From Nilaparvata lugens (taxonomy: Eukaryota; Arthropoda; Insecta; Hemiptera; Delphacidae), in NCBI RefSeq assembly GCF_014356525.2, contig NC_052505.1:17554135-17618134 (forward strand): DNA of 64,000 nucleotides, given 5' to 3'. The position numbers and the translations under genes are program-made. Below, in pieces: positions 21,476-58,935 of the stretch (position 1 is its first letter; each line of letters opens with the position of its first letter). Under the pieces are notes generated by a model, which saw only the letters and a list, made by a program, of their open reading frames with translations, had not been told where the DNA came from and did no database searches.

Positions 21476-22380
21476 TCAATCGTCCGATTGGTTGGCAGCT
21501 TTCCATCTTTGTCTGTCCAGAGCCAGCTGTTTTAGTTGGGTATAGCTCTGGACCCCAAGATCCCGGGTTATCTGCTTCAAATATTGTAGCCGAGGTCTTC
21601 CACGAGCCCGTTGTCCACTGATTGCACCTTCCAGTATTGTTAGCGTGAATTCGCTGTGTCTTATAATATGTCCTATCCAAGAATGCCGTCTGTCCCTAAG
21701 AGATTTCAATAGAGTTTTTTGTGTCTCTTTAGCCCTTTGAAATACTTCTTCATTTGTTATTCTATCGGTCCATTTTATTTTCAGCATTCGCCTCCAACAC
21801 CATACTTCAAATGCATTAATTGCCTTTTCTTCCGCCTTACCGATAGTCCATGTCTCTGAGCCATATAGTGCAATACTCCAGATACAACTCTTTATAAGTC
21901 TCTTTCTCAAATCCAAATTCAGACTTTTGGAGGAAAGCACATTCCGTTTATTGATGAAAATGGCCTTGGCTTCTCTTATACGGCGCTTTATGTCTTCTTT
22001 GTCTTTTCCATCCTCTGAAATAATGCTACCTAAGTATTTAAATTTTTTTACTTGTTTGAGGGCGTTATTCTCTATCTTTACTATTTCAAAATCAGGATTC
22101 TTGGAGCAGATCATCACTTCTGTCTTAGCCTTATTTATCTCCATATAAAATTCATTTTTGAGAATGTCATGCAAGGTATTCAGTGCTCTCTCTAGATTAC
22201 TTTTATCTTGTGCCACTATTGCAATATCGTCTGCAAAGCGGAGCATTTGCACTCTTAATCCATTTACCTTGATTCCTGAACAATATTCCTTACATTTATT
22301 GACAGCCTGTTCTACATAGATATTGAACAATAGCGGTGACAAACTACAACCCTGCCTTACTCCTCTCTTGATGGCAGCTT
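21476..22380 (-). pseudogene. LINE A, C-terminal part: reverse transcriptase catalytic core and tail
   Basis: The reading frame resumes just after the LINE B junction with REAAIKRGVRQGC..SPLLF, a conserved reverse transcriptase block. It carries the catalytic FADD motif near 22227-22238, the FKYLGS block, and a C-terminal WIGHIIRH / GRPRLQYLK region typical of RTE-like elements. The usual first methionine at 22342 is only an internal one. Together with 25565-27602 it makes one polyprotein of roughly 980 residues. Interruption by LINE B makes it non-functional. Confidence 0.85.
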
Positions 22381-22390
22381 CTCTTTTTTT

Positions 22391-22414
22391 CTATATATAT
22401 ATATATATATATAA
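22391..22414. repeat. (TA)n microsatellite, 3' tail of LINE B
   Basis: A run of TA dinucleotides lies exactly at the LINE B / LINE A junction, so it probably formed as the 3' tail of LINE B. Confidence 0.8.
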
Positions 22415-22433
22415 ATTGGGATTTTACAGTACT

Positions 22434-25400
22434 TTACTGTCTTCCTTCTTTTAGCCGAGTCCTCCATTCTTGTCTGTCCTCCCACTCACCATCTCTCAAA
22501 TTCCTCATTACCATAGCCTCATCCACTTCATCCCTCCAAGACCTTCTTGGTCTTCCTCTCCTCCTCCGCCCCAACGGACTCCAATCTGTCACTATTCCAA
22601 TCCACTTACTGGCACTAGCTCTTCTGGCATGACCATACCACATCAACCTCTTGTCTTCTATGAATTTCATTATATCAGACTCCACCTTCATTCTGTCCCT
22701 GATCACCTCATTCCTCACTTTATCCATTCTGGTCAAAGCACAGCACCTTCTCCAAAACTCCATTTTGACAGCTGTTATTTTACTTCTTGTTTTCTTGTTT
22801 TGTCACCCACATTTCTGCACCATAAGTCATTACACTTCTCACGATGGTATTGAATATCCTGTGCTTAGTTTTCTTATGGATATTTCTACTCCATAAGATT
22901 GGGTGCAACTGCCTTATGCAACTTCTTGTCTGTGCCAATCTGATCTTTATTTCTTCCTCTGTATCGCCACTTTGCGTGATAGTGAACCCAAGGTATTTGA
23001 ATTTTTCTGCTTCTTTTATCTCAGTATTGTCATCAATGGTTAAATTTTGTGTTGAATTCCCATTTGTCTGCAAATACTCCGTCTTGTCTATATTTTATTT
23101 CCAGACCAGCCTTTTCATACTCTTCCTTGAGTTTCCTCATCATAAAGCTTAGGTCTTCCTCATCCTGAGCAATCACAACCTGGTCATCTGCGAAACAAAG
23201 GGTGAAAAGGTTCTCTCCTCTGATGGGTATTCCCATTCCTTGACACTTTCTCTTCCATGTCCGCAAGGTATCTTCTAAGAAGATCTTGAACAGAGTTGGA
23301 GATGAGCTGCAACCCTGCAACAAACCTTTTGATGTTTCAAATGGATGTGTCAAGCTTTTACCAATCCTAATACTAATCCTGTTCCCGTCATATAGTTTCA
23401 TTGTGGCATTGATGAGATATCGAGGTATTTCAAGGTTTTCCATCGCTTTCCAAAGTCTTTTTCGAGGCACAGTATCATAGGCTTTCCTAAGGTCCACAAA
23501 AGCAAGATGCACTGACCTGTTTTTTGCATACTTCTTCTGAATGATCTGCTGCAGAGTATATATATGATCTACGCATGATTTACCCGCCGAAAATCCTGCC
23601 TGCTCACACCCAATCTTCCCTTCTATTTCCTTCTCTAGCATCATTTTCAGAATTTTCCCATACACTCTGGCCATAGCTGGAAGAACGGCAATACCTCTGT
23701 GGTTTTCACACCTATTCCTGTCGCCTTTCTTGAATATAGAAGTCATTTGCGCTGTTTTCCATTCTCCTGGCGCCTCCTCCCCATCAATGACTCTCTGGAA
23801 AAGCACTATCAAGATTCTAAACAACTTTTTAGATCCACACTTGATCAGTTCCGGACTGATGCCACCTGGTCCTGCAGATTTATTGTTTTTTAAAGTTCGT
23901 ATAACCTTCTCCACTTCCTCCTGCAATACTAGAGTCTCTCGCTGTTCCTGATCTTCAGGAATTACACTATCACCAAGAAACTCTCTCCTTGATTCTGTGA
24001 GCAAGTTTTTGTAATATCTCTCCCACTCTGTAGGCTTGATTTTGGTAACAGTGATTTTTTCTCTCCTATTGGTTCGAAGGGTTTTCAATACTCTCCAGGA
24101 TTCTGAGCTTCTTGCACCTCCAATATACTGATCTATTTGTGAACATCGTTTTTCCCATTCATTGTTCATTTCTTGCACTATCAACCTTTTAACCTCTCTA
24201 TTTTTCTCTTTATACTTCTGCAAGTCCTCAACTTTTTTTGTATTCAACCATCTCTCATAAAGCACTTTTTTATTATTCATTTCTTGCTTTGTTATCTCAC
24301 TTAAGTTGTGCTTATACTTCCTTTGACCTCCATCATCCTCTCCCAAGGCCTGCATTGCCGCTTGATGTATGCATTGCTTTATGTGGTTGTAGATTTCTTC
24401 TGGGCTGTCAAACCTGAATAATTCCATTAGTTTTTGGTCCATTCTTCTTTGATACAGATCTTTTATAGTATCATCTTGCAGTAAATCCAACTTATATTTT
24501 CTCGTTCTTTCTTTTGCAGCCCCTGTTTCCGAAACATTAGAAATTTCTCCACTATTGGATTTACAACCATTCCATGGAAATTCTAACTTTGACCAAAGTA
24601 ATTGATGATCCGATCCACATTCTGGCCCTCTTTTAACACGTATATCTTTCACGCATATTGATGTTCTCTGCTTCATTATGATATAGTCTATGATTGTTTT
24701 GAGCTTGCGAGTTGCTTGTGTCCAAGTGAACTTATGGATTTCTTTATGCCTGTAAAAACCATTGAGTATTCTCAACCCTTGTAGTTCACAGAGCTCTATC
24801 AGTTTCTCTCCATTGTCATTTAGGTTGTCCTCTCCAAAGCTGCCAACCACTGAGTCATTAATCCTCTTGCCTGTTCTTCCATTGAAATCACCTGCTAAGA
24901 TGATTTCTTTTCGTTCATTTATTTTTTCAATGTTTACTCTCAGGCATTCGAAAAAATTTTCTTTATCTTGCATTTGACTGTCATCATTAGGACCATATAC
25001 TCCCAGGATTACTATCTCTCTGCCATAAATTTCGAGCTCTACCTCAATTATCCGCTCACTAATTGGATTCCATGACTTAATGAATCTTCTAAGTTTTTTC
25101 TGGATAAGCATACCTATCCCTGCTTTGGCTCTCTGATCTGTATCTACTCCACTCCAAAAAAGCAATGCTTCCTCCACCTCTTCACAACCACTACCCTTCT
25201 TTTTCATTTCGCTAGTCACCAGTATATCTATTTTCATTTTGTGGAATTCTTGAGTGACTTCTAATATTTTATTCTTCCAACCTTGTACATTCCAAGTTCC
25301 CAATATAAGCTTCCTATGTTGCTTTTTCCGTTTTTTGCATGGACTCCCTCGACTAAAATCTTTAAAGAGGTTTCCAATATTTTGAGCATCACTGCCTTCC

Positions 25401-25477
25401 CCCGTATCCGAATGAAGGCTCCCTCTTGTAGAGGTGTGGATTTCCACCCGGGGATAATTTTTGGTTTTGCTACCCAT
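22434..25477 (-). pseudogene. LINE B polyprotein with two frameshifts
   Basis: The main frame (25477 to 23033, 814 codons) starts MGSKTKNYP. It has the endonuclease blocks GTWNVQGW near residue 60, AGDFNGRTGK near 196 and GSDHQLLW near 290. Reverse transcriptase follows (NKSAGPGGISPELIK, FVDLRKAYDTVPRKRLW, FADD at about 23185-23196). A frameshift near 23080 moves reading into the frame 23073-22780 (FKYLGFTITQSG, VMTYGAEMW). A second frameshift near 22775 moves it into 22763-22434, which ends with GRRRRGRPRRSW. Two shifts make it inactive. The class is RTE-like by order and motifs; a Proto2/RTE-X relative is possible. Confidence 0.85.
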
Positions 25478-25538
25478 ATTGTCAACCTTTAAATTTTTGC
25501 CTGTGCTAGGTTGTTAACGCCTAACGCCAGAACCCCCT

Positions 25539-27602
25539 TTAGGAGGACCAGTCTGGCTCTTCTGCTCTTTGTTTCTCACCCACCTTTATAAATGCTGTTT
25601 GAGCAGTATACAGCTCTCTTATGATCCTTCTGTCTCTGTAATCTACTTTGATTGTTTTGAGTGTTTGCATGAGGACATTCCAATTTACCCTATCAAATGC
25701 CTTGAGTAAATCTACAAAAGCAATATACACCTTCTTATTTACTTCGAAACTCTTTTCCACAATGTTCCTTAAACACAATATAGCATCTCTTGTTCCTCTA
25801 TTCCTTCTGAAGCCAAATTGGTCATCTGCTAGGTTTGCATCTATTTTACCTTCAATCCTTTTCAAAATAACGCTAGTTAGTATTTTGGATGTATGCGACA
25901 GAATACTCAGTGTTCTATATTCCTCACATCTTGTTGCATTACTTTTTTTCGGTAACATCACCATCAAGCTTTTCTTAAAATCAAGTGGAACTTTTCCGGT
26001 TATATATATCTCATTCAAAAGGGTAAGTAGAACGTTTCTCATCTCTTCATTGAGCGCTTGCAGAAGTTCAGCAGGAATATCATCTACTCCATAAGCTTTC
26101 TTTGACTTGAGATCATGTAACGCTTTTTCCATTTCTGGAAAAGCAATCGGTGGTCCCAACTCATCAAAAGGTACATCGTCCTCGTTTTCTACTCCCTCAA
26201 AGCATTCTGCATCACCATAGAGCCTTTCTACATATTGTTTCCATCTATCTGCCACCTCATCATTGTCCATAAGAATTTTCATGTCACTCGATTTAATAAT
26301 GTTGCTTCTTACTGTCCGCTTGCCAAACATCTTCCTAATTAGATTATTAGATTTTTCAACGTTTCCTCTTTCAAAGTTGTTATCTATTTCATTGCAGCAT
26401 CGATCAAGCCATTCTACTTTATCTTTTTCAGCATGTCTATTTACAAGATTTCTTACTCTATTATACTCACTCCTATTTCCTTCTCTTTTGTGTTTCCGTC
26501 TCAATTCCATCAGATCTATGGTATCTTCACTAATCCAAGGGCTTCTTGGTTGCACCCTCTCACAGCCTAATGTTTCTTTGGCAGACGTCAAAATTGAATT
26601 TTTCAAATGTTCCCACTGATTATGTGTGTCTAGCACTGGCTGGTCTACTTGACTTAATCTTTGTTTGATCGTGCTATTGTATTTATCAGCATTTTCTTGT
26701 ATCTTCAATTTTTCTACCGCCCATTTTCCTGTAGCTGGATTTAGTCTAAATGTCTTTTTTCCACCTTGTAACTTCAAGTCCATCACTACGGGATTGTGAT
26801 CACTACAAATATCAGCACCGGGATAGGTTTTGCATTGTTGTATGTACCGTTTGTGTTTTATCTTAACAATGATGTAATCTATTTGATATCTTGCTATATC
26901 TCCTGGCTGAATCCACGTGTAACGACGTCGCATAGGCTGCTTAAAAAGTGTGTTGGCAATAACAAAATTTTTCTCCATGCAAAAATCTATAAACCTCTGT
27001 CCACGCTCATTCCTATTTCCCAATCCATATTTTCCAATCACCTCCTCATCACTTCCCTCACCCACAACTGCATTCCAATCACCAAGGATAACTAAGGTTT
27101 CACTATCTTTCACATGGCTCAATACTTCATCTATTTGCTCATATACTTCCTCTAATTCTTCGTTGCTGTATCCAAATGTTGGCATGTATATTTGCATAAT
27201 GGCTATATGTTCTCCTTCACGCTCAAACTTGACCAACATTATTCTATCATTGAACAACATGTAGCTTTTCACACTTCTTCCCCATTTCTTGTCCAATACC
27301 ATTCCGACTCCTGTTGTACTGATTTTGTCACCTGAGAAGATAATTCTGTAGTCTCCACTCCAAAAGTCTCCCTCGTCCTTCCATTTAATCTCACTCATCC
27401 CAATGACATTGACATTCAGTCGTTTCATTTCAAGTTTCACATTCTCTAATTTTCCACAGACACCCAATGATCTTACATTCCAAGTAGCAACTCTAAAGAT
27501 CTTCTTGTTTCTGGTGATTCCATTTGATGCTGTCCCCGCCCGGAGATCCGAATGGGGGATTATTTTAACTCCGGAATATTTAGTAACAGATGGACTCATC
27601 AT
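25539..27602 (-). pseudogene. LINE A, N-terminal part: endonuclease and start of reverse transcriptase
   Basis: This 687-codon frame encodes the apurinic/apyrimidinic-type endonuclease (ATWNVRSLG near residue 39, MSEIKW near 70, LGDWNAVVG near 178, SDHNPVV near 270). The first reverse transcriptase blocks follow (KAYGVDDIPAELLQ, then FVDLLKAFDRVNW). It would nick the target DNA and prime cDNA synthesis there. The true LINE A frame stops at about 25565; the last ~9 residues are read from inserted LINE B. The frame continues in 21476-22380. The start codon at 27602 gives full-length endonuclease coverage. There is no frameshift within this half, so the element was probably active until it was split. 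Confidence 0.85.
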
Positions 27603-29415: not shown

Positions 29416-29719
29416 GCTCATCTTATTTCTTCAAAGCCTACAAAAATTTTGGCAACAGTACGAAGTTGGAAAAGGATGCAGCTATCTACCATGTCCAATG
29501 TCAGACAAGGTTAGCAAACCAATGTTGATCAGATGCTGACTTACAGCGTGAATCTCCTATAGAACATATAAGAGCAATATGAAAGGGGAATAATCAATGC
29601 TATCCAAGTTAGCCTGGAATATCTTACAAGCAGCAATTGTTCAACTTACAATCCCTTACAAGCTGTTCAGCAGTCAAGCTATTTGCTGAGAGAATTAGGT
29701 TGCTCCTTGAATTATTGGA
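29416..29719. other. Stretch without a gene
   Basis: No supported frame or repeat. The last bases of this flank run directly into the ACCTTG target duplication of the long-TIR element. Confidence 0.5.
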
Positions 29720-29725
29720 CCTTGA
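29720..29725. repeat. 6-bp target duplication, left (ACCTTG)
   Basis: Direct repeat of 38846-38851, immediately outside the terminal AGTAGCTTAG of the long-TIR element. Confidence 0.85.
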
Positions 29726-29960
29726 GTAGCTTAGATTAGTGGGGACTGGGAAGAATTTTTGCGCAATCCGCGAGAAATAAGGAAAAAATTTTGCGCAAAT
29801 CCCCCTCCCCCTCCCCCCTCCCCCTCTGCGCATGCGCAAACTCCCCCCTCTCCTCCCCCCTTTCCTCCCCCTTTCCTCCCCCCTCTCCTCCCCCCTTTCC
29901 TCCCCCTCTCCTCCCCCTTTCCTCCCCCTCTCCTCCCCTCTCCCTCTCCTTCTCCCTCTC
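29726..29960. repeat. Outer left inverted arm
   Basis: The first ~85 bp match the right arm practically without change. They contain TTTTTGCGCAATCCGCG and TTTTGCGCAAAT. A C/T-rich run and the perfect palindrome TGCGCATGCGCA at 29827-29838 follow. The arm is interrupted by a LINE near 29960 and resumes at about 33547. Confidence 0.88.
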
Positions 29961-30002
29961 CCTGACTCTCATTGACACGTCAGCTCGCTCGCCCTCAAGT
30001 AG

Positions 30003-30806
30003 GTATGATTATTTCAATAATAGTAATAATGACGCAGGTATGTTTCTAGCAAATGAGCTCCACTCTTTCAAAAAACTTTTCAAGGCTGCTCACCTTAACG
30101 TACAATCCCTCAGCTGCCACATTGATGAACTCAGAGCAATCTTCCGTTTTCAGGACTTCAATATAATCGGAATTTCTGAATCATTCTTGAAGCCTAGTAT
30201 TTCATCAAATTTTGTTGCATTGCCTGGATATAATCTTTTCCGGAATGATAGATTAAATAAAGCTTGTGGGGGTGTAGCAATTTATGTGAAAGATGGTATC
30301 AAAACAAAAGTTTTAATCACATCTAAACAAGAGTATTGTTCCAGACCAGAGTTTATGCTACTTGAATTATCCTTATCTAGTAATGATAAATTACTCGTTG
30401 GTATCTGTTATCGCCCACCAAAAATAGGTCATTTCACAGATTTCGAAAATGCCTTGCTTTCTCTTATGCCTTGTTATAACCGTATACTAGTTATGGGGGA
30501 TATGAACACCGACTTGAACATGACGAATCGTAACTTTGACTACTTTCAACTGACTACAATTTTCCAATGCCTAAACATGACTATTTTACCCCTCGATCCA
30601 ACTCATCATACTAATGAATCAGACACACTCATTGACCTTCTCATTGTTAGTGATCCCAATGAGGTTGTTCAAGCAGGCCAAATCTCAGTCCCAGCTATTT
30701 CTAGACATGATTTGATCTACTGTGTACTTTCCCATAAGATACCCAAGCCAGAACAGAAAATTATCACTTATAGAGACTTCAAAACTTTGATGAAGCCGCC
30801 TTCCTG
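30003..30806 (+). pseudogene. LINE C endonuclease half
   Basis: From about residue 87 of the open frame the sequence reads KAAHLNVQSLSCHIDELRA, IIGISESFL, GGVAIYVKDG, VMGDMNTDLN and SRHDLIYC. These are the ordered blocks of a LINE apurinic-type endonuclease. The frame can be extended upstream to 29791 only through the C/T repeat of the host arm, which gives a meaningless Pro/Ser/Leu stretch. It ends at 30807, where a one-base shift near 30784 breaks the link with the reverse transcriptase half. Confidence 0.82.
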
Positions 30807-30812
30807 ACTGAT

Positions 30813-32906
30813 GTGGCTCAGACTCCATGGCATCAAATTGAAGCATTACCCTCAGTTGATGACATGGTCAAGACTTTCGAGAATTGGACTTTGACTTTGT
30901 ATGACAAACATGCACCTTATGTGACAAGGAGGATTAATAGAAAACGACGAGTACCGTGGATGACTGAAGACATACTTAAGATGATGGGACGTAGAGACAA
31001 AGCACATAGAAAATTTAAAAAGACATTTGACTTGGACAGTTTGATAGAGTATAGGAGCCTTAGAAATAGGGTTAAACAGGAATTACGGAACTCAAAGATT
31101 AGGTACTTGAATTCGTTTATGACAAACAATAGACAAGACTCTAAATCACTTTGGCAGGGAATAAAAGAATTCGGGCTTGGCAAACAGAAATCAAATCCAC
31201 AAATTGACTTACCATTGAATAATATAAATGACTATTTCGTTTCACACTTTAACCAACGCGACGAAATTGTCATTGCTAATCATATAGATGATCTTGAAGA
31301 GCAGGTTACAAACTTAGATTTACCAATCACTGATCAATTTCATTTCCATCCAATCTCAGATGAAGACACTTTCAGAGCAATTCAACGTATTCATAGTAAT
31401 GCTATGGGTGTAGACAAAATTCCTATTAAATTTATCAAGAAGATGTTATTTGCTGTTTTACCAACCATTACATACATTTTCAACAAGTCACTTGAAGAAG
31501 GCATTTTCCCTGAAAACTGGAAGTTTGCTCTGGTTCGCCCTCTAAATAAAGTTCCATCACCCAATAAAGTTGAGGATTTTAGACCAATCAGTATTTTACC
31601 TGCATTGTCCAAAGTGCTAGAAAGACTCATTCATGCTCAAGTTGTAAAATTTCTAGACAACAATAGTAAGCTTCATAACTTTCAATCAGGCTTTAGAAAA
31701 TTCCATTCAACTGAGACAGCTCTGCTTCGTGTCACTGATGATATAAGGTTAGCTATGGACCAAAGAAAATGCACCATCCTCACCCTATTTGATTTTTCTA
31801 AAGCATTCGATACTGTTGATCATACAGTCCTTCTGAATAAGTTGGCTATTCTTGGTTTCAGTCACAACTCGTTAGTTTGGTTTAAATCCTATCTATTAGG
31901 TAGGAAACAATGTGTATCTGTCGGTGACAAAAAGTCAACTTGGAAAAACGTTATACATGGAGTACCACAAGGTTCAATTTTAGGCCCTCTCCTCTTCACT
32001 TTGTATGCTAATGACCTTTCTTCCATTATCAAATTCTCCAGTTTCCATACTTATGCAGACGACCTTCAAATCTATTTAAGCTGTCCCATAACAAAAATTA
32101 ATGAAACAGTTGGAATAATGAATCAGGATATCAATTCGATAGTGGAATGGACAAAGAAAAATGGCCTTAAGCTTAATCCCATCAAAACACAACCCATTAT
32201 AATTGGATATTCTCGTCTTATAAACAATATTGACCTTGAATCGATTCACAAAATTAGTGTAGACGGTAATGACATTCCTTACTGTAGCTCAGTTAAAAAT
32301 TTAGGCATTATTATGAATAATACTCTTGACTGGTCAGAACAAGTGAACAAAACTTGTAAAAAGGTATTCTCAGCCATGCATGCATTGAAGAAAATGCACG
32401 ATATCCTCCCTAGAAACATTAAATTATTATTGGTTCAATCTCTCATCTTCCCACATTTAATGTATTGTAATTCTGTTCTTAATGATATGCAAGTCACTCT
32501 GAATGATAAACTACAGCGTTGCCAAAATTATTGTCTACGTTTCGTCTACTCTCTCCAACGCCATGATCATATCACCCCAGCCCACATTGCTAGTTCAACA
32601 TTAAAGCTTCCCGATCAGAGGCTTTTTCGAATAGTCAAGCTTGTTAGAGATATCTTGAAATACGGTAATCCGAACTATTTTAAAGATGATTTCAAATTTG
32701 TCTCTGAAGGTAGGAGGATAGATGCTTCACATACTAGAACCGGAGAAAGTACTTTAAGGATACCCAATCATCGAACTACTATTTTCACAAAATCCTTCTT
32801 AGTCAGTGCCTGTCGTGCATGGAATACACTTCCTGTTTCTATCAGGTCTATCGAGAGCCGAGCGAGCTTCAACCTGACTTTAAAAAACATATTTTGGAAC
32901 AAATGA
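30813..32906 (+). pseudogene. LINE C reverse transcriptase half
   Basis: This 697-codon frame continues the polyprotein after a one-base frameshift. The true junction is DFK / FDEAAFLTDVAQ around 30780-30815. It has the reverse transcriptase blocks NAMGVDKIPIKFIKK, DFRPISILP, FDFSKAFDTVDH, GVPQGSILGPLLF and the catalytic YADD at about 32052-32063, followed by VKNLGIIM and a C-terminal domain ending in RSIESRASFNL. Block style places it in the CR1/L2/Daphne part of the Jockey superfamily. With one frameshift and almost no other damage, it looks recent. Confidence 0.85.
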
Positions 32907-33546
32907 CTGAAACTGTCCGGCCCTAGAACGATCACATGACAACCATCCCTCACCCATTCCACCAATATAAACCTTTAAACCATGTTATAGAACGAATTGT
33001 ATATATATATATATATATTATATAAACTCATGTTATTTCAATTATCCACTGCATACTGCTGTATATTACTGAAATTTGATAACCCTGATCTACTTTCAGC
33101 CTACTCCATTTTATTAATCAATTATTTGATCTTATCTACCTATATAATTATTTTACTTTATCAATTTTTTGTTTTTTTCTCTTCAATATTCATATTGATT
33201 AAAACTTTTACAATATTTCCATTAATAAATAAATCCTTAGTTTAAATAACGAAATTAACGTTTTGGAAGAGAGTTAGTGGGGAGGATATTTTTAATATTC
33301 TTCCCAAAGAATGGACATTGATATGTCCAAAGCTCCGCCAATTTATGTAGATGCATAACAATATGATTATTATCTATAGTTATTATATTACAAATTGCTT
33401 TTTCATATCATATACAGTTCAATAGTTATTTTCTTAGTCTATATTATGTAAATTCATCTATAACTTTGCTGTATTGTAAGCTATTGTATATAAGTGTATA
33501 AGCCAGTATATAATTGTAATCTACATAAATAAAGTACTCAATCAAT
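32907..33546 (+). other. LINE C 3' untranslated region
   Basis: AT-rich, with a (TA)n run near 33000-33018. From about 33262 to 33546 it is shared with the truncated minus-strand copy at 47374-47664, and it closes with (CAAT)n. Confidence 0.8.
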
Positions 33547-33790
33547 CCCTCTCCTTCTCCTTCTCCCTCTCCTTCTCCCTCTCCTTCTCCCTCTCCCTCT
33601 CCCTCTCCCTCTCCTTCTCCCTCTCCCTCACCCCTCTCCCAGTGAGGACGAGGGGGAGGAAGAGAGACAGTGAGGGAAAAAATAATTTCCCTTTTTCCCT
33701 TTTCTACTGACAGATTAAAGTGAATCCATCTTTCTACTGTCAAATTAAAGTGAATCCATATTTCTACTGTCAAATTAAAGTGACTCCATC
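33547..33790. repeat. Left inverted arm, resumed after LINE C
   Basis: CTCCTTCTCCCTCTCC repeats are followed by CCAGTGAGGACGAGGGGGAG and TACTGACAGATTAAAGTGAA units. These mirror 38380-38540 of the right arm. Confidence 0.85.
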
Positions 33791-33798
33791 TAATGTTA

Positions 33799-34115
33799 TA
33801 CTGACAGTGAGAGTCAACCTTGGAAGATATGCTCAAATTATTCTCTCAGTCAGATCTTAAGTCAGCATCATGAATCTCTAAGAACCCAATTCAACTTATA
33901 CTGACAGATTAAATTCCAGTCTAGTATAGATAAGAAACTCTTTTGTAGATGTGCTAAATACTGACAGTGAGAGTCAACCTTGGAAGATATGCTCAAATTA
34001 TTCTCTCAGTCAGATCTTAAGTCAGCATCATGAAGCTCTAAGAACCCAATTCAACTTATACTGACAGATTAAATTCCAGTCTAGATAAGAAACTCTATTG
34101 TAGATGTGCTAAAAC
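33799..34115. repeat. Two tandem ~160-bp units inside the left arm
   Basis: TACTGACAGTGAGAGTCAAC begins at about 33799 and again at about 33958. Both units contain GAAGATATGCTCAAATTATT and CTTAAGTCAGCATCATGAA. The right arm lacks them, so the arms have become asymmetric by local duplication or deletion. Confidence 0.8.
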
Positions 34116-34283
34116 CCTATTACTCTTTTAAGTTTCTCGTTCTAGAGTTAGTTGCAAGGATCTTTAAATGCAAGGATATTACTTTAAATGCAACCCTAAA
34201 ATCTTTAAATGCAAAGTGAATCCATCTTTATACTGAGTGAATACATCTTTATACTGTAAAATTAAAGTGAATGCTAGATGAGT

Positions 34284-34541
34284 GAAAAAATAATTTCCCT
34301 TTTTCCCTTTTCTACTGACAAATTAAAGTGAATCCATCTTTATACTGATTGGTTTGCTTTCCACCCGACAGTTAAGAAAAATTTCACAAATTTATATTGA
34401 AATTTTCTATGTGCTGTACAAACCGCAGGCGTTGCTTTTTAAGTGTGCTCTCCGAGAATATCTATAGTAAATTTAGTACGAACAAGCATTCCAAAAATAG
34501 CTATAGATATCCTCAGACCTATATCACTGGGGGTATCAGCT
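34284..34541. repeat. Middle inverted arm, left
   Basis: It includes TTTCTACTGACAAATTAAAG-type units, GGTTTGCTTTCCACC, ATTTCTATGTGCTGTACAAA-like sequence and CGAACAAGCATTCCAAAAAT. It pairs with 38181-38460 over ~190 bp with few differences. Confidence 0.85.
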
Positions 34542-34565
34542 CTATTGATGTCTTAACAGAATGAT

Positions 34566-34913
34566 CTAAGTTGATCTTTTACATTTTTTATCTGCAATGT
34601 CATACAAGCATTTCCAAAGTTCATCGGTATTTGTAACAATAGTTGAGAAATCATTTGCACTACAATAATGTAGATGACCTGTATCTAGTATGTTCAATAA
34701 TTCGAAAATCTCAGATAAAATTGGAAAATGTACATTTTCTGTTTTTGTTAACGGTAAATCATCGCCTTGGAATCCTGTTGAAAATTTAATAGTTTTTGCA
34801 ATAGAATCAAATTCATTGAATGAAATTGACATCAAGAGGCGAGATAATTTTTTGAATTTAGCAAAGCTAAAACACTGCATGACCTCGATTATGTTATGAA
34901 CAATAATGTGCAC
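34566..34913 (-). CDS. Hypothetical 115-residue protein in the left non-mirrored segment
   Basis: An open minus-strand frame starts MHIIVHNIIEVMQCFSF and ends DIADKKCKRST. I do not recognise it. It occupies the segment between the middle and inner arm blocks that has no mirror on the right side. Composition is ordinary, with no simple repeat, and it is read divergently from the large gene. No promoter was identified. It may be a real small gene of the element, an exon, or chance. Confidence 0.3.
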   Translation of the reverse strand: MHIIVHNIIEVMQCFSFAKFKKLSRLLMSISFNEFDSIAKTIKFSTGFQGDDLPLTKTENVHFPILSEIFELLNILDTGHLHYCSANDFSTIVTNTDELWKCLYDIADKKCKRST

Positions 34914-35064
34914 TTAGCTGTAACAGAGTTGACTCTGAGGGGGCGTATCTCTTGATAAGCTCAAGCTGTAACAGTTGTGTCTGAGGGGGCGTTTCTCGCG
35001 TGCTCACTCAATCAAGTCTACACTGATACTAAACCAAAATGTTCAAGGAAATATCTGAATTAAA

Positions 35065-35133
35065 AAATTTCATATAGGTAAGAAATCACCTTGCTATGCT
35101 TTCAACGAAGGCTGTTTCAACGACCCCCACTCC
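35065..35133. repeat. Inner inverted block, left
   Basis: AAATTTCATATAGGTAAGAA through CGACCCCCACTCC is an almost exact reverse complement of 37932-38000. It closes the left arm ~120 bp upstream of the large gene and carries a mirrored AG/GTAAGA word. Confidence 0.9.
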
Positions 35134-35193
35134 TCCTACCCCTGTCACATGATCACACCATATCACATGACCAGTCTTTGTCAACTATCTTAC

Positions 35194-35230
35194 TATAAAT
35201 ACCACTGCATTGATCTGCATTCGTTCAGTT
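35194..35230 (+). promoter_or_regulatory. TATA box plus insect initiator for the 790-codon gene
   Basis: TATAAATA lies at 35194-35201 and the initiator TTCAGTT around 35224-35230, with its A at 35227. The 33-bp distance fits a canonical insect RNA polymerase II core promoter. The first ATG at 35256 follows ~29 bp downstream in a good context (AAACATGG). The layout suggests the gene brings its own promoter. Confidence 0.65.
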
Positions 35231-35255
35231 TGATAGTGTCAACGGTGGAGTAAAC

Positions 35256-37628
35256 ATGGATACTTCTAAGGTGTTTAATGTGCCTATGCTCTGTGGTAAT
35301 AAAATCAAGCCTACCAATGAGCGGTTTGGTTTTTGGCTTCTATCAGAAAACATGTGGAATGACAACCTTGTGACAGACATTGGAAATATTGATTACACTG
35401 GTGGGGAAGAACTGTTTGTGCAGGATGACTCAAATCTTGTGCCTATTACAGAACCTTTTTGTGACAATATAATGCTTGTGAAAATCTGTGCTTTGGATGA
35501 TTGTGAGGCAATGGATAAGAGACGTTTTGTTCTAAAAAAGGATATATGTGGTGCATTCAACTTATATTTAAGAGGCAAATTCTCAAATATGGTGTCAGCT
35601 AAACATGGAGTCAAAGCAAAGCTACCTTACCTATTGGACAGTGGAAGTGATATGTCTCAAAAGATTCTACAAGTGCTTGGCAATGACAATTACAACGAAG
35701 TGAAACAAAAATACCAGGAACCAGTGGGGATACCTTACAAAGTGGAGCTTGCAGATGTGCCAATTGCTACATTGATAGAAGAACTACCGAGATTATTGGA
35801 GCAGCTGAGGAAGGAGCACTTCTATCTACTAGACTTGGACATAACACAGGACTTTGCTGGAATATTCAACAAGAATGGAATGTGTGACTTTCTAACTACA
35901 AATCATTGTTTCTGCTTTCAAGGAGAATATAAAGAAGACTATAATGTGATAGTAGATAACAATAAAACTGTTGGGATTGATTGCTTGACTTGGGTTAATA
36001 ATAATGTGAGAGTAAAAATTTATAATAAGTTTGTATGTCAAATCACAAGCCCTGGTATAAATAAGCAGTTAGGTAACCATATTGTAGACTTTATTGCCTG
36101 TCCAGATACAAGATTACGGGAAACCTTTACCTCTGATGCAGCTAAAATGCATGGTATTACACGTTTGGAAGCTACAATCTATAACTATAGTTTAACAAAT
36201 AGAGAGAATAGCAAAATCTTTGAGCCTATTCAAGATAGCTTGTCACTCTTGAATGATAGTAGAAATTATTTCCAAAATGCTCCAATTTATTCTGTGTCCT
36301 TGGCTAAAATGTGGAGAAAACTGACAGATAATTTAAAAAATAGCTGTTGTTTGGTTTTTAACAATATCTTACAATATGTTTACTGGGGAAATAGCAATAC
36401 CAAGAAATTGACTGGAGTACAATTAAATCTCCCTACCAATCAACAACAACGAAATAAAATAATATCCTATGTAATCTCTGCATTTAGCTTTAATCTACTA
36501 CCTATTAATTATGTGGAAATTTTCGAGGATGCAGACAACAAGGACAATATTAGTTTTATACAAAAGTGTTATATTAAGAGTGGAGAGACTTATTTCTCCA
36601 AGTCAACCACAGTTTTCTCTACCATATCCAAAGTTGTTGACCTAGATGAGTTGGGTCTTGTAGCAACAGGTAACTTGATACCACAAGTCTTAAGAAAACG
36701 TGCAAACATAAGCTGTAAGCTTCTCCCGCACCCTGTTAAAGAGATACAGCCCTTGTCTCCTATCTCAGTGCTATCAACCAAGAAGCGTAAGCTAGAACTG
36801 GATGAAATTGATCTAAAACGGAGGAGAATTGAGTTTTTAGAGGCTACAGAGAGCATAAAGGAGCAGCACAAACAGCTTATAGAATTTGAGGAAGAAATAG
36901 AAAATTTGAGAGAGGAACTTGAGCCATATTTCCATTCACATTGGCGAAATTTTGATCTAAGTGGAGTGTACAATGTGACTGCATTTACTGTGAATAATAC
37001 TGGGAAATTCCCATATGTAGGTGTACTGGGGGAGAAAGATGATTTGAAAAATGTTTACTTTGTAAAGGGGTGCCATAAAAATGTTTTTATTAATGCATAC
37101 AAAGCTATCGAAACTCTCAAGAAAGAGGGTTATTTTGTAATCCCTTACACTGACAAAAAAGAAATTATTTGTCTACCAAGGGAAGAGAAAATTTGTGTAA
37201 TTACAGTCAATGGTATGACAAGCTATAATGGTCATACATTTCCTAGAATAGAATCACTTAAGTTTCTGTCAGATGTATGGAAAAACTTGGAAGACACTCC
37301 CTTCACACAAAAAGAAGTGGAGCAGTATAATAACATCACAATGCTGGAAATTAAAGGGAAAGTAAAAGTAGGACAGTGTAAAAGATTAGAAGAGTTACCA
37401 CAAGGTATAGAGTTAGTCATTATTGCAATAAAAGAAGTGTACAATAGAAACAAGATACGGTATATCCTACAGTTTGAAAATGTAGAAGCATTGTATGTGT
37501 CAAACTATTGGTTAGAGGAAGAATTTGAAAAGCCAAACATAGATTTGAATTATAAAATTAGAATCAAGCTAGATGTTTTTAAATATACACCCAGTAGGAA
37601 TAAGGAAAGAGTTACTTTCTGTATTTGA
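35256..37628 (+). CDS. Large unrecognised protein (790 aa), sole intact gene of the long-TIR element
   Basis: Intact single-exon frame beginning MDTSKVFNVPM and ending VTFCI. I do not recognise the family. Residues 191-204 (LLDLDITQDFAGIF), 253-258 (VKIYNK) and 303-311 (RLEATIYNY) occur in the order seen in plasmid-type replication initiators (Rep_trans-like: acidic D.D strand, IYNK strand, RLE strand). This resemblance is weak and is inference only. Residues 508-524 are strongly basic (KKRK, KRRR), possibly a nuclear localisation signal. Residues 520-556 should form a coiled coil. The last ~100 residues are rich in beta-type segments, as in OB folds. No membrane segment or signal peptide is seen. 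It has its own promoter and poly(A) signal and lies within mirrored arms. Replication or mobilisation of the element is its most plausible job, not shown. Confidence 0.85.
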   Translation: MDTSKVFNVPMLCGNKIKPTNERFGFWLLSENMWNDNLVTDIGNIDYTGGEELFVQDDSNLVPITEPFCDNIMLVKICALDDCEAMDKRRFVLKKDICGAFNLYLRGKFSNMVSAKHGVKAKLPYLLDSGSDMSQKILQVLGNDNYNEVKQKYQEPVGIPYKVELADVPIATLIEELPRLLEQLRKEHFYLLDLDITQDFAGIFNKNGMCDFLTTNHCFCFQGEYKEDYNVIVDNNKTVGIDCLTWVNNNVRVKIYNKFVCQITSPGINKQLGNHIVDFIACPDTRLRETFTSDAAKMHGITRLEATIYNYSLTNRENSKIFEPIQDSLSLLNDSRNYFQNAPIYSVSLAKMWRKLTDNLKNSCCLVFNNILQYVYWGNSNTKKLTGVQLNLPTNQQQRNKIISYVISAFSFNLLPINYVEIFEDADNKDNISFIQKCYIKSGETYFSKSTTVFSTISKVVDLDELGLVATGNLIPQVLRKRANISCKLLPHPVKEIQPLSPISVLSTKKRKLELDEIDLKRRRIEFLEATESIKEQHKQLIEFEEEIENLREELEPYFHSHWRNFDLSGVYNVTAFTVNNTGKFPYVGVLGEKDDLKNVYFVKGCHKNVFINAYKAIETLKKEGYFVIPYTDKKEIICLPREEKICVITVNGMTSYNGHTFPRIESLKFLSDVWKNLEDTPFTQKEVEQYNNITMLEIKGKVKVGQCKRLEELPQGIELVIIAIKEVYNRNKIRYILQFENVEALYVSNYWLEEEFEKPNIDLNYKIRIKLDVFKYTPSRNKERVTFCI

Positions 37629-37670
37629 TTTGGTCATAGATATGGTTTGATGTATGTATAATAATTTAAA

Positions 37671-37676
37671 AATAAA
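37671..37676 (+). terminator. Poly(A) signal AATAAA of the 790-codon gene
   Basis: AATAAA lies about 43 bp after the stop codon, within an A-rich stretch. Confidence 0.6.
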
Positions 37677-37679
37677 GAA

Positions 37680-37931
37680 AATTATTGTGACAATGACTGT
37701 TGACATTTACCTCTCTCCCCTTCCCCCGATTCCTCTCTCATTTTTTCTTTTTCCTGCTAAACGAGTGGAGGAGGAGGAAGAGGAGGAGGACAAAGGAGGA
37801 GAACGGAGGACAATTTTTGTCCTCAGAGGGGAGGAGGAGGAGAACAGAGTACAAAGGAGGACAAAGGAGGACATAGCAAATCAAAGGTTAGTTAGTTATT
37901 TGATTGGTGTGTGCTCATAAGAGAGGGAGGT
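37680..37931. other. Purine-rich 3' flank of the large gene
   Basis: GAGGAGGAGGAAGAGGAGG-type repeats run from about 37768 to 37875. The frame at 37654-37920 follows from this composition and is not supported as a gene. Confidence 0.5.
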
Positions 37932-38000
37932 GGAGTGGGGGTCGTTGAAACAGCCTTCGTTGAAAGCATAGCAAGGTGATTTCTTACCTATATGAAATTT
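37932..38000. repeat. Inner inverted block, right
   Basis: Reverse complement of 35065-35133, starting GGAGTGGGGGTCGTTGAAAC and ending TATATGAAATTT. Confidence 0.9.
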
Positions 38001-38173
38001 GCATACACATAATTGATATTGATAGTGAAGGAGACTTTAAAGAGGTTATCAACTTGCCCAATGAGTATTCTCTAGTCTTAAACAAGCATAAACTTAAAAG
38101 TTTTCTTTCACGCTCGTGGGAACTTAATGTCAGTGGAAATCGAATTTTCCTAAGAGAACTGCACCGATATTGA
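37976..38173 (+). CDS. Hypothetical 65-residue frame in the right non-mirrored segment
   Basis: An open frame starts MISYLYEICIHIIDIDSEG and ends FLRELHRY. It sits between the inner and middle right arm blocks, opposite the 115-codon frame of the left side but unrelated to it. The composition is protein-like (LNKHKLKSFLSRSWELN), but its length is at the limit of chance. No family is recognised. It could be an exon or a fragment of a gene lost from the element. Confidence 0.25.
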   Translation: MISYLYEICIHIIDIDSEGDFKEVINLPNEYSLVLNKHKLKSFLSRSWELNVSGNRIFLRELHRY

Positions 38174-38180
38174 TGATGTT

Positions 38181-38845
38181 GATACCCCAAGTGATATAGG
38201 TCTGAGAATATCTATAGCCATTTTTGGAATGCTTGTTCGTACTAAATTTACTATAGATATTCTCGGAGAGCACACTTAAAAAAGCAACGCCTGCAGGTTT
38301 GTACAGCACATAGAAAATTTCAATATAAATTTGTGAAATTTTTCTTAACTGTCAGGTGGAAAGCAAACCGGATTCACTTTAATTTGTCAGTAGAAATATG
38401 GATTCACTTTAATTTGACAGTAGAAAGATGGATTCACTTTAATCTGTCAGTAGAAAAGGGAAAAAGGGAAATTATTTTTTCCCTCACTGTCTCTCTTCCT
38501 CCCCCTCGTCCTCACTGGGAGAGGGGTGAGGGAGAGGGAGAAGGAGAGGGAGAGGGAGAGGGAGAGGGAGAAGGAGAGGGAGAAGGAGAGGGAGAAGGAG
38601 AAGGAGAGGGAGAGGGAGAAGGAGAGGGAGAGGGGGAGGAGAGGGGGAGGAAAGGGGGAGGAGAGGGGGAGGAAAGGGGGAGGAGAGGGGGGAGGAAAGG
38701 GGGAGGAAAGGGGGGAGGAGAGGGGGGAGTTTGCGCATGCGCAGAGGGGGAGGGGGGAGGGGGAGGGGGATTTGCGCAAAATTTTTTCCTTATTTCTCGC
38801 GGATTGCGCAAAAATTCTTCCCAGTCCCCACTAATCTAAGCTACT
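38181..38845. repeat. Outer and middle right inverted arm
   Basis: Uninterrupted counterpart of the left arm. From the outside in it has the terminal block, TGCGCATGCGCA at 38732-38743, a long G/A-rich run, and TCCCTCACTGTCTC. Three tandem GGATTCACTTTAATTTGTCAG-like units follow (38370-38450), then the middle block with GCTTGTTCGTACTAAATTTA. Confidence 0.88.
38526..38760. repeat. (GGAGAA/GGAGAG)n and GGGGGAGGA repeats of the right arm
   Basis: Purine-only strand asymmetry over ~235 bp, mirrored by the pyrimidine runs at 29800-29960 and 33547-33640. Long overlapping frames here are by-products of the repeat. Confidence 0.9.
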
Positions 38846-38851
38846 ACCTTG
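38846..38851. repeat. 6-bp target duplication, right (ACCTTG)
   Basis: Direct repeat of 29720-29725, immediately after the terminal CTAAGCTACT. Confidence 0.85.
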
Positions 38852-55801: not shown

Positions 55802-56340
55802 GCTTTGTGATTAGTAGTGATGCAAATCTAGTTTCTCTATAGTTTTCTGAATCATGGAGACTATATTTCTACACCCTCATCCGTAATAATTGACCGTTCA
55901 TCTTTATTTTTTTCCACACATGATTAAACTCCTTCTATTCTTCCTCTGACCATCCTTCTCTATCCGTTTCAATTTATGTTCTTCTTTTTCTACCTCGTTG
56001 TTCTGTTATGATTCTCTTTCTCCTCCACCTTCCCCGAATCGACATTCACCTCAACAATTAAAAGACACTACTTATTTTCCTTCACCTTCCATCTTTATTC
56101 TTTTTCACACTTGATTGTTCTCCTTCCATGCGTCCTCTGACCGTCCTTCTCTATCCGTTTCAATTTATGTTCTTCTTTTTCTACCTTGTTGTTCTGTTAT
56201 AATTTTGTTTCTCCTCCTCCTCCCCGAATCAACTTTCACCTTAACCACTAACAGACACTACTTATTTTCCTTTATCTTCCTGTCGTTCTTCTCCTTCTTT
56301 TTCTCCTTCTCAATTACCCTGCTACTCACTTACACTCACT
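55802..56340. other. Pyrimidine-rich stretch without a gene
   Basis: TCTTTTTCTACC and TCTCCTCC words occur, with an internal near-duplication (about 55915-56060 and 56095-56240, both with CGTCCTTCTCTATCCGTTTC or similar). No supported gene. Confidence 0.5.
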
Positions 56341-56609
56341 CCCTTCTCCTTCTTATTCTCCACCCCCTTCTTATTCTTCTTCTTCTTCTTCTTCTTCTTC
56401 TTCTTCTTCTTCTTCTCCTTCTTCTTCTTCTTCTTCTTCGACTTCTTCATCTTCTTCTCCTTCTTTTTCTTCTTCTTTTTCTTCTTCTCCTTCTCAATAA
56501 TCACCATGCTTCTCACTCACACTCGATCCTTCTCTCCCTTCTCCTTCCACGTTACACTATCCTTCTCGTTTTCTCTTCCTCTTTATCTTCTTCTTCATAG
56601 TCTTCTTCT

Positions 56610-56641
<32 letters not shown>

Positions 56642-57295
56642 TTCTTCTTCTTCTTCTTCTTCTTTTTCTTCTTCTTCTCCTTCTCAATAATCACCATGCT
56701 TCTCACTCACACTCGATCCTTCTCTCCCTTCTCCTTCCCCGATACACTATCTTTCTCGTTTTCTCTTCCTCTTCTTCTTGTTCTTCTTTCTTCTTCAACG
56801 TCTTCTTCTTGTTCTTCTCCTTCTTCTCCTTCTCCTTCATCATCCTCTCCTACTTCAACATTCTAGACATGTCAGTGTTTGTGCTTCTCCTTCTCCTCCT
56901 CAATCACCCTGCTTCTCACTCACACTCAATCCTTCTCTCCCTTCTCCTTCCTCGTTACACTATCCTTCTCGTTTTCTCTTCCTCTTCTTCTTCTTCTTCT
57001 TTCTTCTTCTTCATAGTCTTCTTCTTCTTCTCTTCTTCTTCTTATTCTCCCCCTTCTTATTCTTCTTCTTCTTCTTCTTCTTCTTCTTCTTCTTCTTCTT
57101 CTCCTTCTTCTTCTTCTTCTTCTTCGACTTCTTCATCTTCTTCTCCTTCTTTTTCTTCTTCTTTTTCTTCTTCTCCTTCTCAATAATCACCATGCTTCTC
57201 ACTCACACTCGATCCTTCTCTCCCTTCTCCTTCCACGTTACACTATCCTTCTCGTTTTCTCTTCCTCTTTATCTTCTTCTTCATAGTCTTCTTCT

Positions 57296-57327
<32 letters not shown>

Positions 57328-57970
57328 TTCTTCTTCTTCTTCTTCTTCTTTTTCTTCTTCTTTTTCTTCTTCTCCTTCTCAATAATCACCATGCTTCTCA
57401 CTCACACTCGATCCTTCTCTCCCTTCTCCTTCCCCGATACACTATCTTTCTCGTTTTCTCTTCCTCTTCTTCTTGTTCTTCTTTCTTCTTCAACGTCTTC
57501 TTCTTGTTCTTCTCCTTCTTCTCCTTCTCCTTCATCATCCTCTCCTACTTCAACATTCTAGACATGTCAGTGTTTGTGCTTCTCCTTCTCCTCCTCAATC
57601 ACCCTGCTTCTCACTCACACTCAATCCTTCTCTCCCTTCTCCTTCCTCGTTACACTATCCTTCTCGTTTTCTCCTCCTCTTCTTCTTCTTCTTCTTCTTC
57701 ATCGTCTTCTTCTTCTCCTTCTCCTTCTTCTCCTTCTTCTCCTTCTTCTTCATCATCCTCTCCTACTTCTACATCCTAGACATGTCAGTCTTTGTGCTTC
57801 TCCTTCTCATCCTCAATCACCCTGCTTCTCACTCACACTCAATCCTTCTCACCCTTCTCCTTCCTCGTTACACTATCCTTCTCGTTTCCTCTTCCTCTTC
57901 TTCTTCTTCTTCTTCTTCTTCTTCTTCTTTTTCTTCCTCTTCCTCATTTTCGTCTTCTACTTCCTCATTC
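56341..57970. repeat. CTT-rich higher-order repeat, block 1
   Basis: (CTT)n arrays are separated by short fixed segments such as CTCACTCACACTCAATCC and ACACTATCCTTCTCGTTTTC. A ~690-bp higher-order unit is visible: 56430-56880 recurs at about 57122-57570. All long Leu/Ser/Phe-rich frames here are artefacts. Confidence 0.92.
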
Positions 57971-58935
57971 CAGGCATGTCAGTCCCTGTGCTAGAGTGTG
58001 CTATGATACAAGATAACGGGGGCTTTGCAGGTGTCACAATATCATGTCCATTCAAATGCTTTTGAATAGTGTTCTTGTGAGCTGTTGAGATAAGTAGAGA
58101 TAGATAAAACTGTCCAGCCATCAGTTTGAGTGGTGCCAGCATTTTGAATGTACATACTCTCATTCGTAGCCACGATAAAGTACATGTAGTGAGTACATCT
58201 CCATTATATATACTTGTTTGGATATTGCTGAATTGAACACATTTGAGCATGAATGAATATACCATGTCTTCCTATGACAGGTAGGAGGTTCTGGGACACA
58301 ACAGAGATAATAAGATATATCAATACAGATACAGTATTGAAAACAGTGGAGAGTTTTCACATAAGATATACATGAAACTGACAACCTTGGTTAAAAATGG
58401 GAGTGAACCTTTATGATCAGATAATATTTTACTCATCAAATGTACTTCCCTATACCTTCAATACCACTTTCAAAACTAGTGAGTAAATTCCAAAATATTT
58501 GTACTTTTACTCAATGATTGATTTTTCATTCAATTTTCGGAATCTACCTTCCAATACCTTCAATACTTACAAAACTTGTGAATATATTCTTCAATATTTG
58601 AATTTTTATTCAATGACTGATTTTTCATTCAACTTTCGGACTCTTTCTCCCTATAACTTGAATAATTACAAAACTAGTGAATATAGATTTCAATATTTGT
58701 ATTTTAAACCTAAAATGATCAGATAATAGTTCACCAATTAATAATGTACCTTCCCATACCTTCAATAATACTTACAATACTAGTGGATATATTCTTCAAT
58801 ATTTGTATTTTTACTCAATGACTGATTTTTTTTTAATTATTCTGACTCTACCTTCCTATAACTTCAATGCTTACAAAACTAGTGAATATATTCTTCAATA
58901 TTTGTATTTTCACTCTATGATAGATTTTTGATTCA
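57971..58935 (+). repeat. Unique spacer plus ~105-bp tandem repeats, copy 1
   Basis: It starts CATGTCAGTCCCTGTGCTAG and is repeated from 59809 onward, an offset of ~1836 bp. Its right part (about 58440-58935) holds four to five units of ~105 bp with TTTTTCATTCAATTTTCGGA, CAATACTTACAAAACTAGTG and ATATTCTTCAATATTTG. Confidence 0.85.

Follow-up and report, generated by a model that had tools for sequence, protein, structure and literature searches.

A planthopper transposon family with Maverick/Polinton-type ends and a gene predicted to encode a Rep_trans-like nickase

Only a few enzyme types serve to classify the DNA transposons of eukaryotes, and to our knowledge a Rep_trans-like nickase is not among them. 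Helitrons and Replitrons are eukaryotic transposons built on a tyrosine nickase of the HUH fold, and nickases of this type usually leave no fixed short duplications. FB-NOF, Galileo and other foldback elements, whose long inverted arms contain internal repeats, rely on MULE- or P-type transposases and generate 9- or 7-bp duplications. Polinton/Maverick elements have inverted AG..CT ends and 6-bp target duplications, and a published Maverick end motif is (AGT)2//(ACT)2 (PMC8097293). IS3EU/GingerRoot elements also make 6-bp duplications, and are described as having TA..TA, occasionally TG..CA, ends and a DDE transposase of their own (PMC10045372). Among nicking enzymes of another fold, the Rep_trans group (PF02486) comprises RepD/RepC of the pT181 family, RepSTK1, RstA of filamentous phages and the MOBT relaxases. 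These enzymes appear restricted to bacteria, according to a 2026 paper that adds an archaeal relative, Rep-Arvir, a divergent Rep_trans-like nickase of archaeal viruses and plasmids that was recognised through structure only (PMC13107129).

The element described here lies in a 64-kb stretch of DNA from Nilaparvata lugens, the whole of which we call the window. Its features, in window positions, are as follows.

29719-29724, no strand: left target duplication, ACCTTG (sequence inspection and 64-kb scan)
29725-38845, + strand: whole element, with ends AGTAGCTTAG...CTAAGCTACT; matching termini bound six further copies with perfect target duplications
29725-29963, + strand: outer left arm, an inverted match to 38607-38845 (92%)
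29741-29810, + strand: predicted terminal hairpin of the left end (DNA fold of 29726-29870)
~29964-33545 (limits approximate), + strand: later LINE insertion interrupting the left arm, with endonuclease-like and reverse transcriptase ORFs in different frames
33546-34538, + strand: continuation of the left arm, with blocks mirrored within 38180-38611 and direct repeats of its own
35065-35158, + strand: conserved inner block preceding the gene, in which TTTCAACGA is repeated
35256-37628, + strand: 790-aa gene; predicted TBP-like/Rep_trans-like catalytic domain (residues ~62-344) and weakly matched OB-like folds (~567-790)
37909-38000, - strand: inner conserved block downstream of the gene, inverted
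38180-38845, - strand: right arm; the hairpin sequence of the left terminus recurs in mirror image close to its end
38846-38851, no strand: right target duplication, ACCTTG (sequence inspection and 64-kb scan)

The window was scanned for AG..CT pairs 150-15000 bp apart that adjoin a non-palindromic 6-bp duplication and match at 13 or more of 16 terminal bases. Exactly one pair was returned, namely the element itself, which ends in AGTAG...CTACT and matches at all 16 positions. An earlier note on this DNA had reported near-identical outer ends, flanking ACCTTG copies and limits of 29726 and 38845; all of this holds except the start, which was placed one base late and is 29725. The element measures 9121 bp with the LINE and ~5.5 kb without it. 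A LINE does interrupt the left arm, as the same note reported. One ORF at 30813-32906 matches RVT_1 (Pfam, E=1.3e-34), and the endonuclease domain of another at 29791-30807 scores 27.2 bits, slightly under the Pfam cut-off of 27.4.

Probing the same genome with the outermost 76 bp of the left arm, a check of the kind that the earlier note had suggested, yielded at least 40 scored places, a lower bound drawn from 425 first-look candidates. These include seven inverted pairs (the window element and six others), and the predicted consistency of the 6-bp duplication was found in all seven, each duplication being perfect and different. The 26 of 40 matches without a partner in the match list were left out of the bounded set. 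An additional copy at C4:69070781-69081250 carries the gene between ends AGTAGT..ACTACT and the duplication ATCAAA, and its arms are unrelated to those in the window. In total, eight copies are bounded at both ends by AGTAG...CTACT (the window element and seven more), and all eight have perfect 6-bp duplications, no two alike. Two of them are known to contain an intact gene, one (C8) holds a degraded piece of it, and five have been seen at their ends only. Lengths range from 1.7 to 15.8 kb, with two members at 15.6 and 15.8 kb.

These ends and duplications are those of Polintons, and the exact (AGT)2//(ACT)2 motif occurs in one of the eight bounded copies, that at C4. The constancy of the 6-bp duplication and AG/CT ends across all eight copies, together with this motif, argues well for insertion by a Maverick-type integrase, as the earlier note had reasoned. 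IS3EU/GingerRoot elements share the duplication length but, as described (PMC10045372), differ in their ends and in encoding their own DDE transposase. Unlike a Polinton, the window element shows no gene for polymerase B, integrase, ATPase or capsid; the absence of such core genes, claimed earlier, was upheld when its ORFs of at least 100 aa were compared with Pfam. These ORFs comprise the 790-aa gene together with one that runs antisense inside it, the LINE ORFs, repeat ORFs and one of 115 aa. The family further departs from Polintons in carrying an unrelated Rep_trans-like gene, in having members as short as 1.7 kb, and in foldback arms that vary between copies. One might still propose a Polinton stripped of its core genes by internal deletion, which retained its ends, its target duplication and one accessory gene, and the Polinton-like lengths of the 15.6- and 15.8-kb members would agree with this. 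However, of the ten ORFs that reach 120 aa in the C8 copy of 15.8 kb, five were scanned, one of them a piece of the 790-aa gene, and they gave no Pfam match above cut-off and none to Polinton genes. The gene is also kept and selected in copies whose flanks are unrelated, and 56 further relatives are known as single proteins. We therefore consider a deleted Polinton improbable.

The gene itself is intact over 790 codons with no inner stops, in agreement with the earlier note. There are at least 57 copies in the genome; 44 of 58 matched gene rows are free of stops, and the median dN/dS of 0.23 indicates purifying selection. When 20 gene copies were fetched as stretches of 6.5-7.6 kb, of which only the C4 copy was extended further, their flanks fell into groups with little in common beyond the gene. 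Scans of the other 19 stretches, which discounted AG..CT pairs within duplicated or palindromic sequence, revealed no convincing case of a gene enclosed by AG..CT ends with a 6-bp duplication, and the ends of these copies probably lie outside the fetched stretches. One candidate pair of ends, at L018 (TTTAAT, 11/16 mirrored bases), was too weak to be accepted.

The gene is under selection and has related proteins in several insects, and no second intact gene was seen in the window element once the LINE is set aside; it could belong to a self-sufficient transposon. Here, the 790-aa protein alone would cut both element and target, acting as a dimer whose two tyrosine active sites place nicks at a distance of six bases on the two target strands, and no Polinton would be needed. 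We judge this unlikely, if not negligibly so: tyrosine-type nickases of other families (HUH elements) do not usually leave fixed short duplications, and the AGTAG/AGTAGT ends are Maverick-like.

What the protein does was approached through its predicted structure. In the AlphaFold model (pLDDT 87), the N-terminal domain resembles TATA-binding proteins (TBPs) and Rep_trans rolling-circle initiators, with TBPs ranked above Rep_trans in the structure comparison, and the C-terminus forms OB-like folds that are weakly matched. Seven key Rep_trans residues, including the metal ligands and the nucleophilic tyrosine, occur in the same order and are invariant in 32 of 32 aligned proteins. The motifs compared were the metal D/D/E set, RxDxAxD, RxYxK and RxE (T176, Y178 and G180 are not among the assigned positions), and seven of ten catalytic positions are identical, the exceptions being R189 to K, R140 to D (30/32) and A144 to T (31/32). 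The D, DxxxD, basic-x-Y-x-K and RxE motifs also keep the spacing inside each motif. Unlike known Rep_trans enzymes, the planthopper protein is eukaryotic, is 790 aa long with an OB-like C-terminus, begins its DxD motif with D rather than R, and has a longer Tyr-to-Glu spacing. Rep-Arvir, as described (PMC13107129), has other sequence around the tyrosine and an HTH-type rather than OB-like C-terminus.

At the sequence level the match to Rep_trans is not significant. Profile-profile comparison gave a probability of 5.5% and a score of 27.6, against a maximum of 20.6 in 60 shuffles. The window protein has no Pfam match of any family, including PF02486 at E up to 10; PF02486 is absent among the best 25 of 29 families listed for the 32-member alignment, and was not matched by ten cores of a second alignment. 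A phage Rep_trans protein, run as a positive control, scored 2.7e-16. Pf1 ORF430, used as a Rep_trans yardstick, had no Pfam match either. A PDB sequence search returned nothing for the window protein and only two and four rows for profiles, at E 0.87 or worse. There is likewise no sign of an HUH motif: no histidine is found among the 15 invariant columns of the 32-member alignment, and the window protein has no Pfam match to HUH families.

The higher rank of TBPs and the lack of a sequence-level link could mean that the domain is TBP-like but no nuclease, for example a DNA-binding regulator, in a wholly non-autonomous element. We regard this as quite doubtful, since the invariant D, DxxxD, KxYxK and RxE set matches the Rep_trans catalytic set, and we know of no TBPs that carry it. 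By its predicted fold and catalytic residues the protein resembles nicking enzymes of the Rep_trans type, with OB-like domains added, and this points to a nick-and-copy replicon. Helitrons and Replitrons would share with it a tyrosine nickase in a eukaryote, but they lack AG..CT ends with 6-bp duplications. An HUH element, a MULE or P foldback and IS3EU were each considered as the identity of the family and dropped.

We favour, with somewhat better than even confidence, a mechanism in which a Rep_trans-like nickase copies the element and a Maverick-type integrase acting in trans inserts the copy. The endonuclease, of predicted TBP-like fold, would use Tyr256 as predicted nucleophile and D70/D195/E305 as metal ligands, and the OB-like domains joined to it probably bind single strands. 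It would most likely nick its own element at the hairpin or the conserved inner block, leaving a 3' end for extension by host polymerase, so that the element would be copied by nick-and-copy, rolling-circle-like replication. A DDE integrase of Maverick/Polinton type would then recognise the AGTAG..CTACT ends and leave the 6-bp duplications. Copying of this kind, where it switches strands, would also yield long foldback arms.

The long inverted arms noted earlier are present in the window copy, but they are not constant across the family. Blocks at 33546-33787 and 38370-38611 share 99% inverted identity, those at 34436-34538 and 38180-38282 share 97%, and those at 35065-35160 and 37905-38000 share 90%, whereas direct comparison found the arms of the window and C4 copies to be unrelated. 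The predicted fold of the left end (29726-29870) has a z of -3.0, with equal stability in 1 of 200 shuffles, and that of the right end (38700-38845) a z of only -1.65, with 11 of 200 shuffles equally stable. The C4 copy has a predicted 19-bp hairpin stem 10 bases from its end (z -10). Hairpins, long inverted ends and a Rep-like protein recall a small DNA virus, now endogenous, that replicated in parvovirus style and borrowed an integrase. We hold this to be very improbable, as the window element has no other gene-like ORF and in Pfam its protein matches neither HUH Rep families nor those of SF3 helicases. Moreover, two scans of viral contigs gave 6 and 162 pattern-matching stretches that tblastn searches with the window protein did not bear out, and a search of phages found no relatives, so that a free virus form, one option of the earlier note, is unsupported. 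Among bacterial and archaeal genomes, 84 stretches matched and none was confirmed with query P0008, which also found no relatives in plasmids.

A Rep_trans-like gene joined to Maverick/Polinton-type ends and a 6-bp duplication looks like a combination absent from the open papers searched. In these we recognised no eukaryotic Rep_trans element, non-autonomous or satellite Polinton, or planthopper report, although a name may exist in Repbase, preprints or subscription papers. We are evenly balanced on the broader proposal of a new eukaryotic transposon class, insect-wide and possibly beyond, copied by a TBP-fold tyrosine nickase that would be the first eukaryotic Rep_trans member, and inserted by Maverick integrase as a Polinton parasite. 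If true, it would enlarge the set of enzymes behind eukaryotic mobile DNA by one class, provide a case of a Polinton satellite in an animal, and explain foldback arms as copying products. With its many stop-free gene rows and several flawless insertions, the family would also be a ready system for studying both the enzyme's way of copying DNA and the action of Maverick integrases in trans.

The inner block (35065/38000) was also considered as an element boundary, and this was dropped because no direct duplication was seen next to it in the window. It may serve as a promoter or as a site for binding or nicking, and among 21 copies examined it lies upstream of the gene in 14 and inverted downstream in seven.

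The stretch contains a mobile element that begins with AG, ends with CT, is flanked by a 6-bp target-site duplication (TSD), and carries one intact gene for a 790-aa protein. Its main features are as follows.

29725-38845, whole element, with ACCTTG directly outside each end
34566-34913, minus strand, 115-aa ORF
35256-37628, gene, open throughout its 790 codons

The window was scanned for AG..CT pairs separated by 150-15000 bp, flanked by a 6-bp duplication other than a palindrome, and mirroring each other at 13 or more of 16 terminal bases; 29725/38845 was the sole pair to pass. The arms mirror one another in blocks, and the left arm is interrupted by a LINE. Apart from the gene and the 115-aa ORF, the element's ORFs that reach 100 aa are two LINE ORFs, arm-repeat ORFs and one of 127 aa that lies antisense to the gene. 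Elsewhere in the window, further LINE ORFs occupy 21476-27602 on the minus strand (RVT_1 in three, endonuclease domains in two), and long, strand-asymmetric pyrimidine-rich repeats lie within 56001-60000 (GC skew -0.79 and -0.45).

The first 76 bases of the element yielded at least 40 scored matches in the same genome, from 425 first-look candidates, and these include seven inverted pairs, the window element among them. The six other copies are 1.7 to 15.8 kb long, and each is bordered by a perfect TSD that differs from all the rest (TTCGTG, CGCGTT, CATGTT, CGAGTC, TGCTAG and ACAATG); both ends were fetched for all six, and the interior for one, the 15.8-kb copy on contig C8. An additional copy on contig C4 (C4:69070781-69081250; 10,470 bp; TSD ATCAAA) carries the gene, starts with AGTAGTATAAAAAGG and ends with CCTTTTTATACTACT, and its arms, approximately 3.5-3.9 kb each, are unrelated to those of the window element. 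With a spacing above 5 kb and a perfect 16-bp mirrored match required, the C4 stretch holds 274 AG..CT pairs. Four of these show a 6-bp duplication, three being trivial palindromes within the arms and the remaining one the outer boundary. Thus, the constant 6-bp duplication with AG..CT ends proposed in the earlier note holds in all eight copies that are bounded at both ends. According to passages of PMC8097293, the commonest ends of vertebrate Mavericks (Polintons) are (AGT)2//(ACT)2. This motif is exact in the C4 copy, and its first five bases are common to the other seven.

Two end matches on different contigs, L048 (C9:33489313) and L058 (C15:30840491-30840600), have the identical bases TATGCTAG immediately to the left of the element, reflecting either duplication of the locus or two separate insertions in copies of the same repeat. 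The C8 copy (L050/L051; C8:49255036-49270866; TSD TTCGTG) has the same ends and contains a piece of the gene along with other ORFs. One of these (L051:3357-3791) encodes a member of a small protein family with eight matches (P0057-P0064), all from Nilaparvata lugens and several on C15 or C16, which raises the question of whether it is an accessory gene of larger family members.

A genome search with the gene returned 58 rows representing at least 57 copies (one is split), a lower bound given that scoring covered 57 of the 1513 first-look candidates. Almost the whole protein is spanned by 54 rows, and 44 are stop-free; among 21 copies (20 fetched with flanks plus that of the window), 16 are fully open. 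The gene is under purifying selection, with a median dN/dS of 0.226 at a median dS of 0.157 (155 of 171 pairs, dS >0.02); the 19 copies compared exclude L026 and L027, which is frameshifted, and stop codons were skipped in four of them. Upstream flanks are common for at least 1.6 kb inside three groups, each made up of 3 to 5 copies. Between copies of different groups, the gene and short flanks are ~90-97% identical, and similarity ends ~60-240 bp upstream and 0-540 bp downstream. A flanking block with repeated TTTCAACGA, a candidate cis-acting site, lies upstream in 14 of the 21 copies and is inverted downstream in seven. Some copies are arranged tail to tail or in tandem (C7:44808438-44810807, plus strand, and 44811080-44813449, minus strand; C15:31160260 and 31164523), with spacings that range from a few hundred bases to roughly 2 kb, and some stretches contain inverted gene fragments; these could be either arrays or strand-switch products. 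Contigs C15 (105.7 Mb) and C16 (10.05 Mb), together ~11% of the genome, hold 31 of the 57 scored copies (24 and 7, respectively), and our guess is that they might be sex chromosomes.

The 790-aa protein is predicted to have a TBP-like fold and active site resembling those of Rep_trans (PF02486) rolling-circle initiators. Passages of PMC4797284 describe Y191 of RepDE as the nucleophile, D46, D142 and E214 as metal ligands, and R140, A144, D146, R189, K193 and R212 as conserved. Nine bacterial Rep_trans proteins that we compared share R-x-D-x-A-x-D, R-x-Y-x-K and W-x-R-x-E, and the planthopper family has D70 in the first strand, D193-x-D195-x-T197-x-D199, K254-x-Y256-x-K258 and R303-x-E305. The alignment comprises 32 rows, namely the window protein and 31 of its 56 further relatives (P0001-P0056), with partial, fused or near-duplicate ones excluded. 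D70, D195, D199, K254, Y256, K258, R303 and E305 are unchanged in all rows, D193 is present in 30 and T197 in 31; seven of the 15 invariant columns (these eight residues without K254) are identical to Rep_trans residues. In the relative P0055, the third motif reads RNKGYVK and follows a long insert. The position numbered E196 in the Rep_trans paper, which is Q in RepSTK1, is occupied by Q (20 rows), C (10) or H (2), and this position, T176, Y178 and G180 were of no help to the comparison. Because hhalign gave a probability of 5.5% for the family core against the nine bacterial proteins (score 27.6; best of 60 shuffles 20.6), a Pfam search of the protein gave no match, and the Tyr-to-Glu spacing is longer (49 residues; RepDE has 23 and the VGJphi protein 19), we call the protein Rep_trans-like and keep it out of PF02486.

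Such an enzyme would nick the element, perhaps at hairpins: the C4 copy has one with a 19-bp stem ten bases from its end (z -10), and the window element folds with z -3.0 at its left end and -1.65 at its right. The 3' end left by the nick may prime copying, during which template switching would create the mirrored arms. Because of the AG..CT ends and the 6-bp duplication, we infer that the product is inserted by a Maverick-type integrase. Among the matches listed, the open literature yielded neither a eukaryotic Rep_trans element nor, under those words, a satellite or non-autonomous Polinton. The predicted link of the planthopper element to Rep_trans is one of structure and motif only.

Named hosts of the relatives are Schistocerca americana, Planococcus citri, Cacopsylla melanoneura, Aphis glycines and Cinara cedri. 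P0008 (53% identical) is filed under Candidatus Baumannia cicadellinicola, a leafhopper symbiont, on a 60-kb contig; it was not found among the bacterial and archaeal genome contigs searched, and is probably insect host DNA inside a bacterial assembly. P0032, from Aphis glycines, is fused to a PF13843 domain (piggyBac-type transposase), an arrangement suggestive of a transposon insertion in the gene. The very distant P0056 has N-terminal Cys-rich EGG..GKC..HGG repeats that resemble the EsV-1-7 repeats known from algae and algal viruses, and on this basis the family may extend beyond animals.
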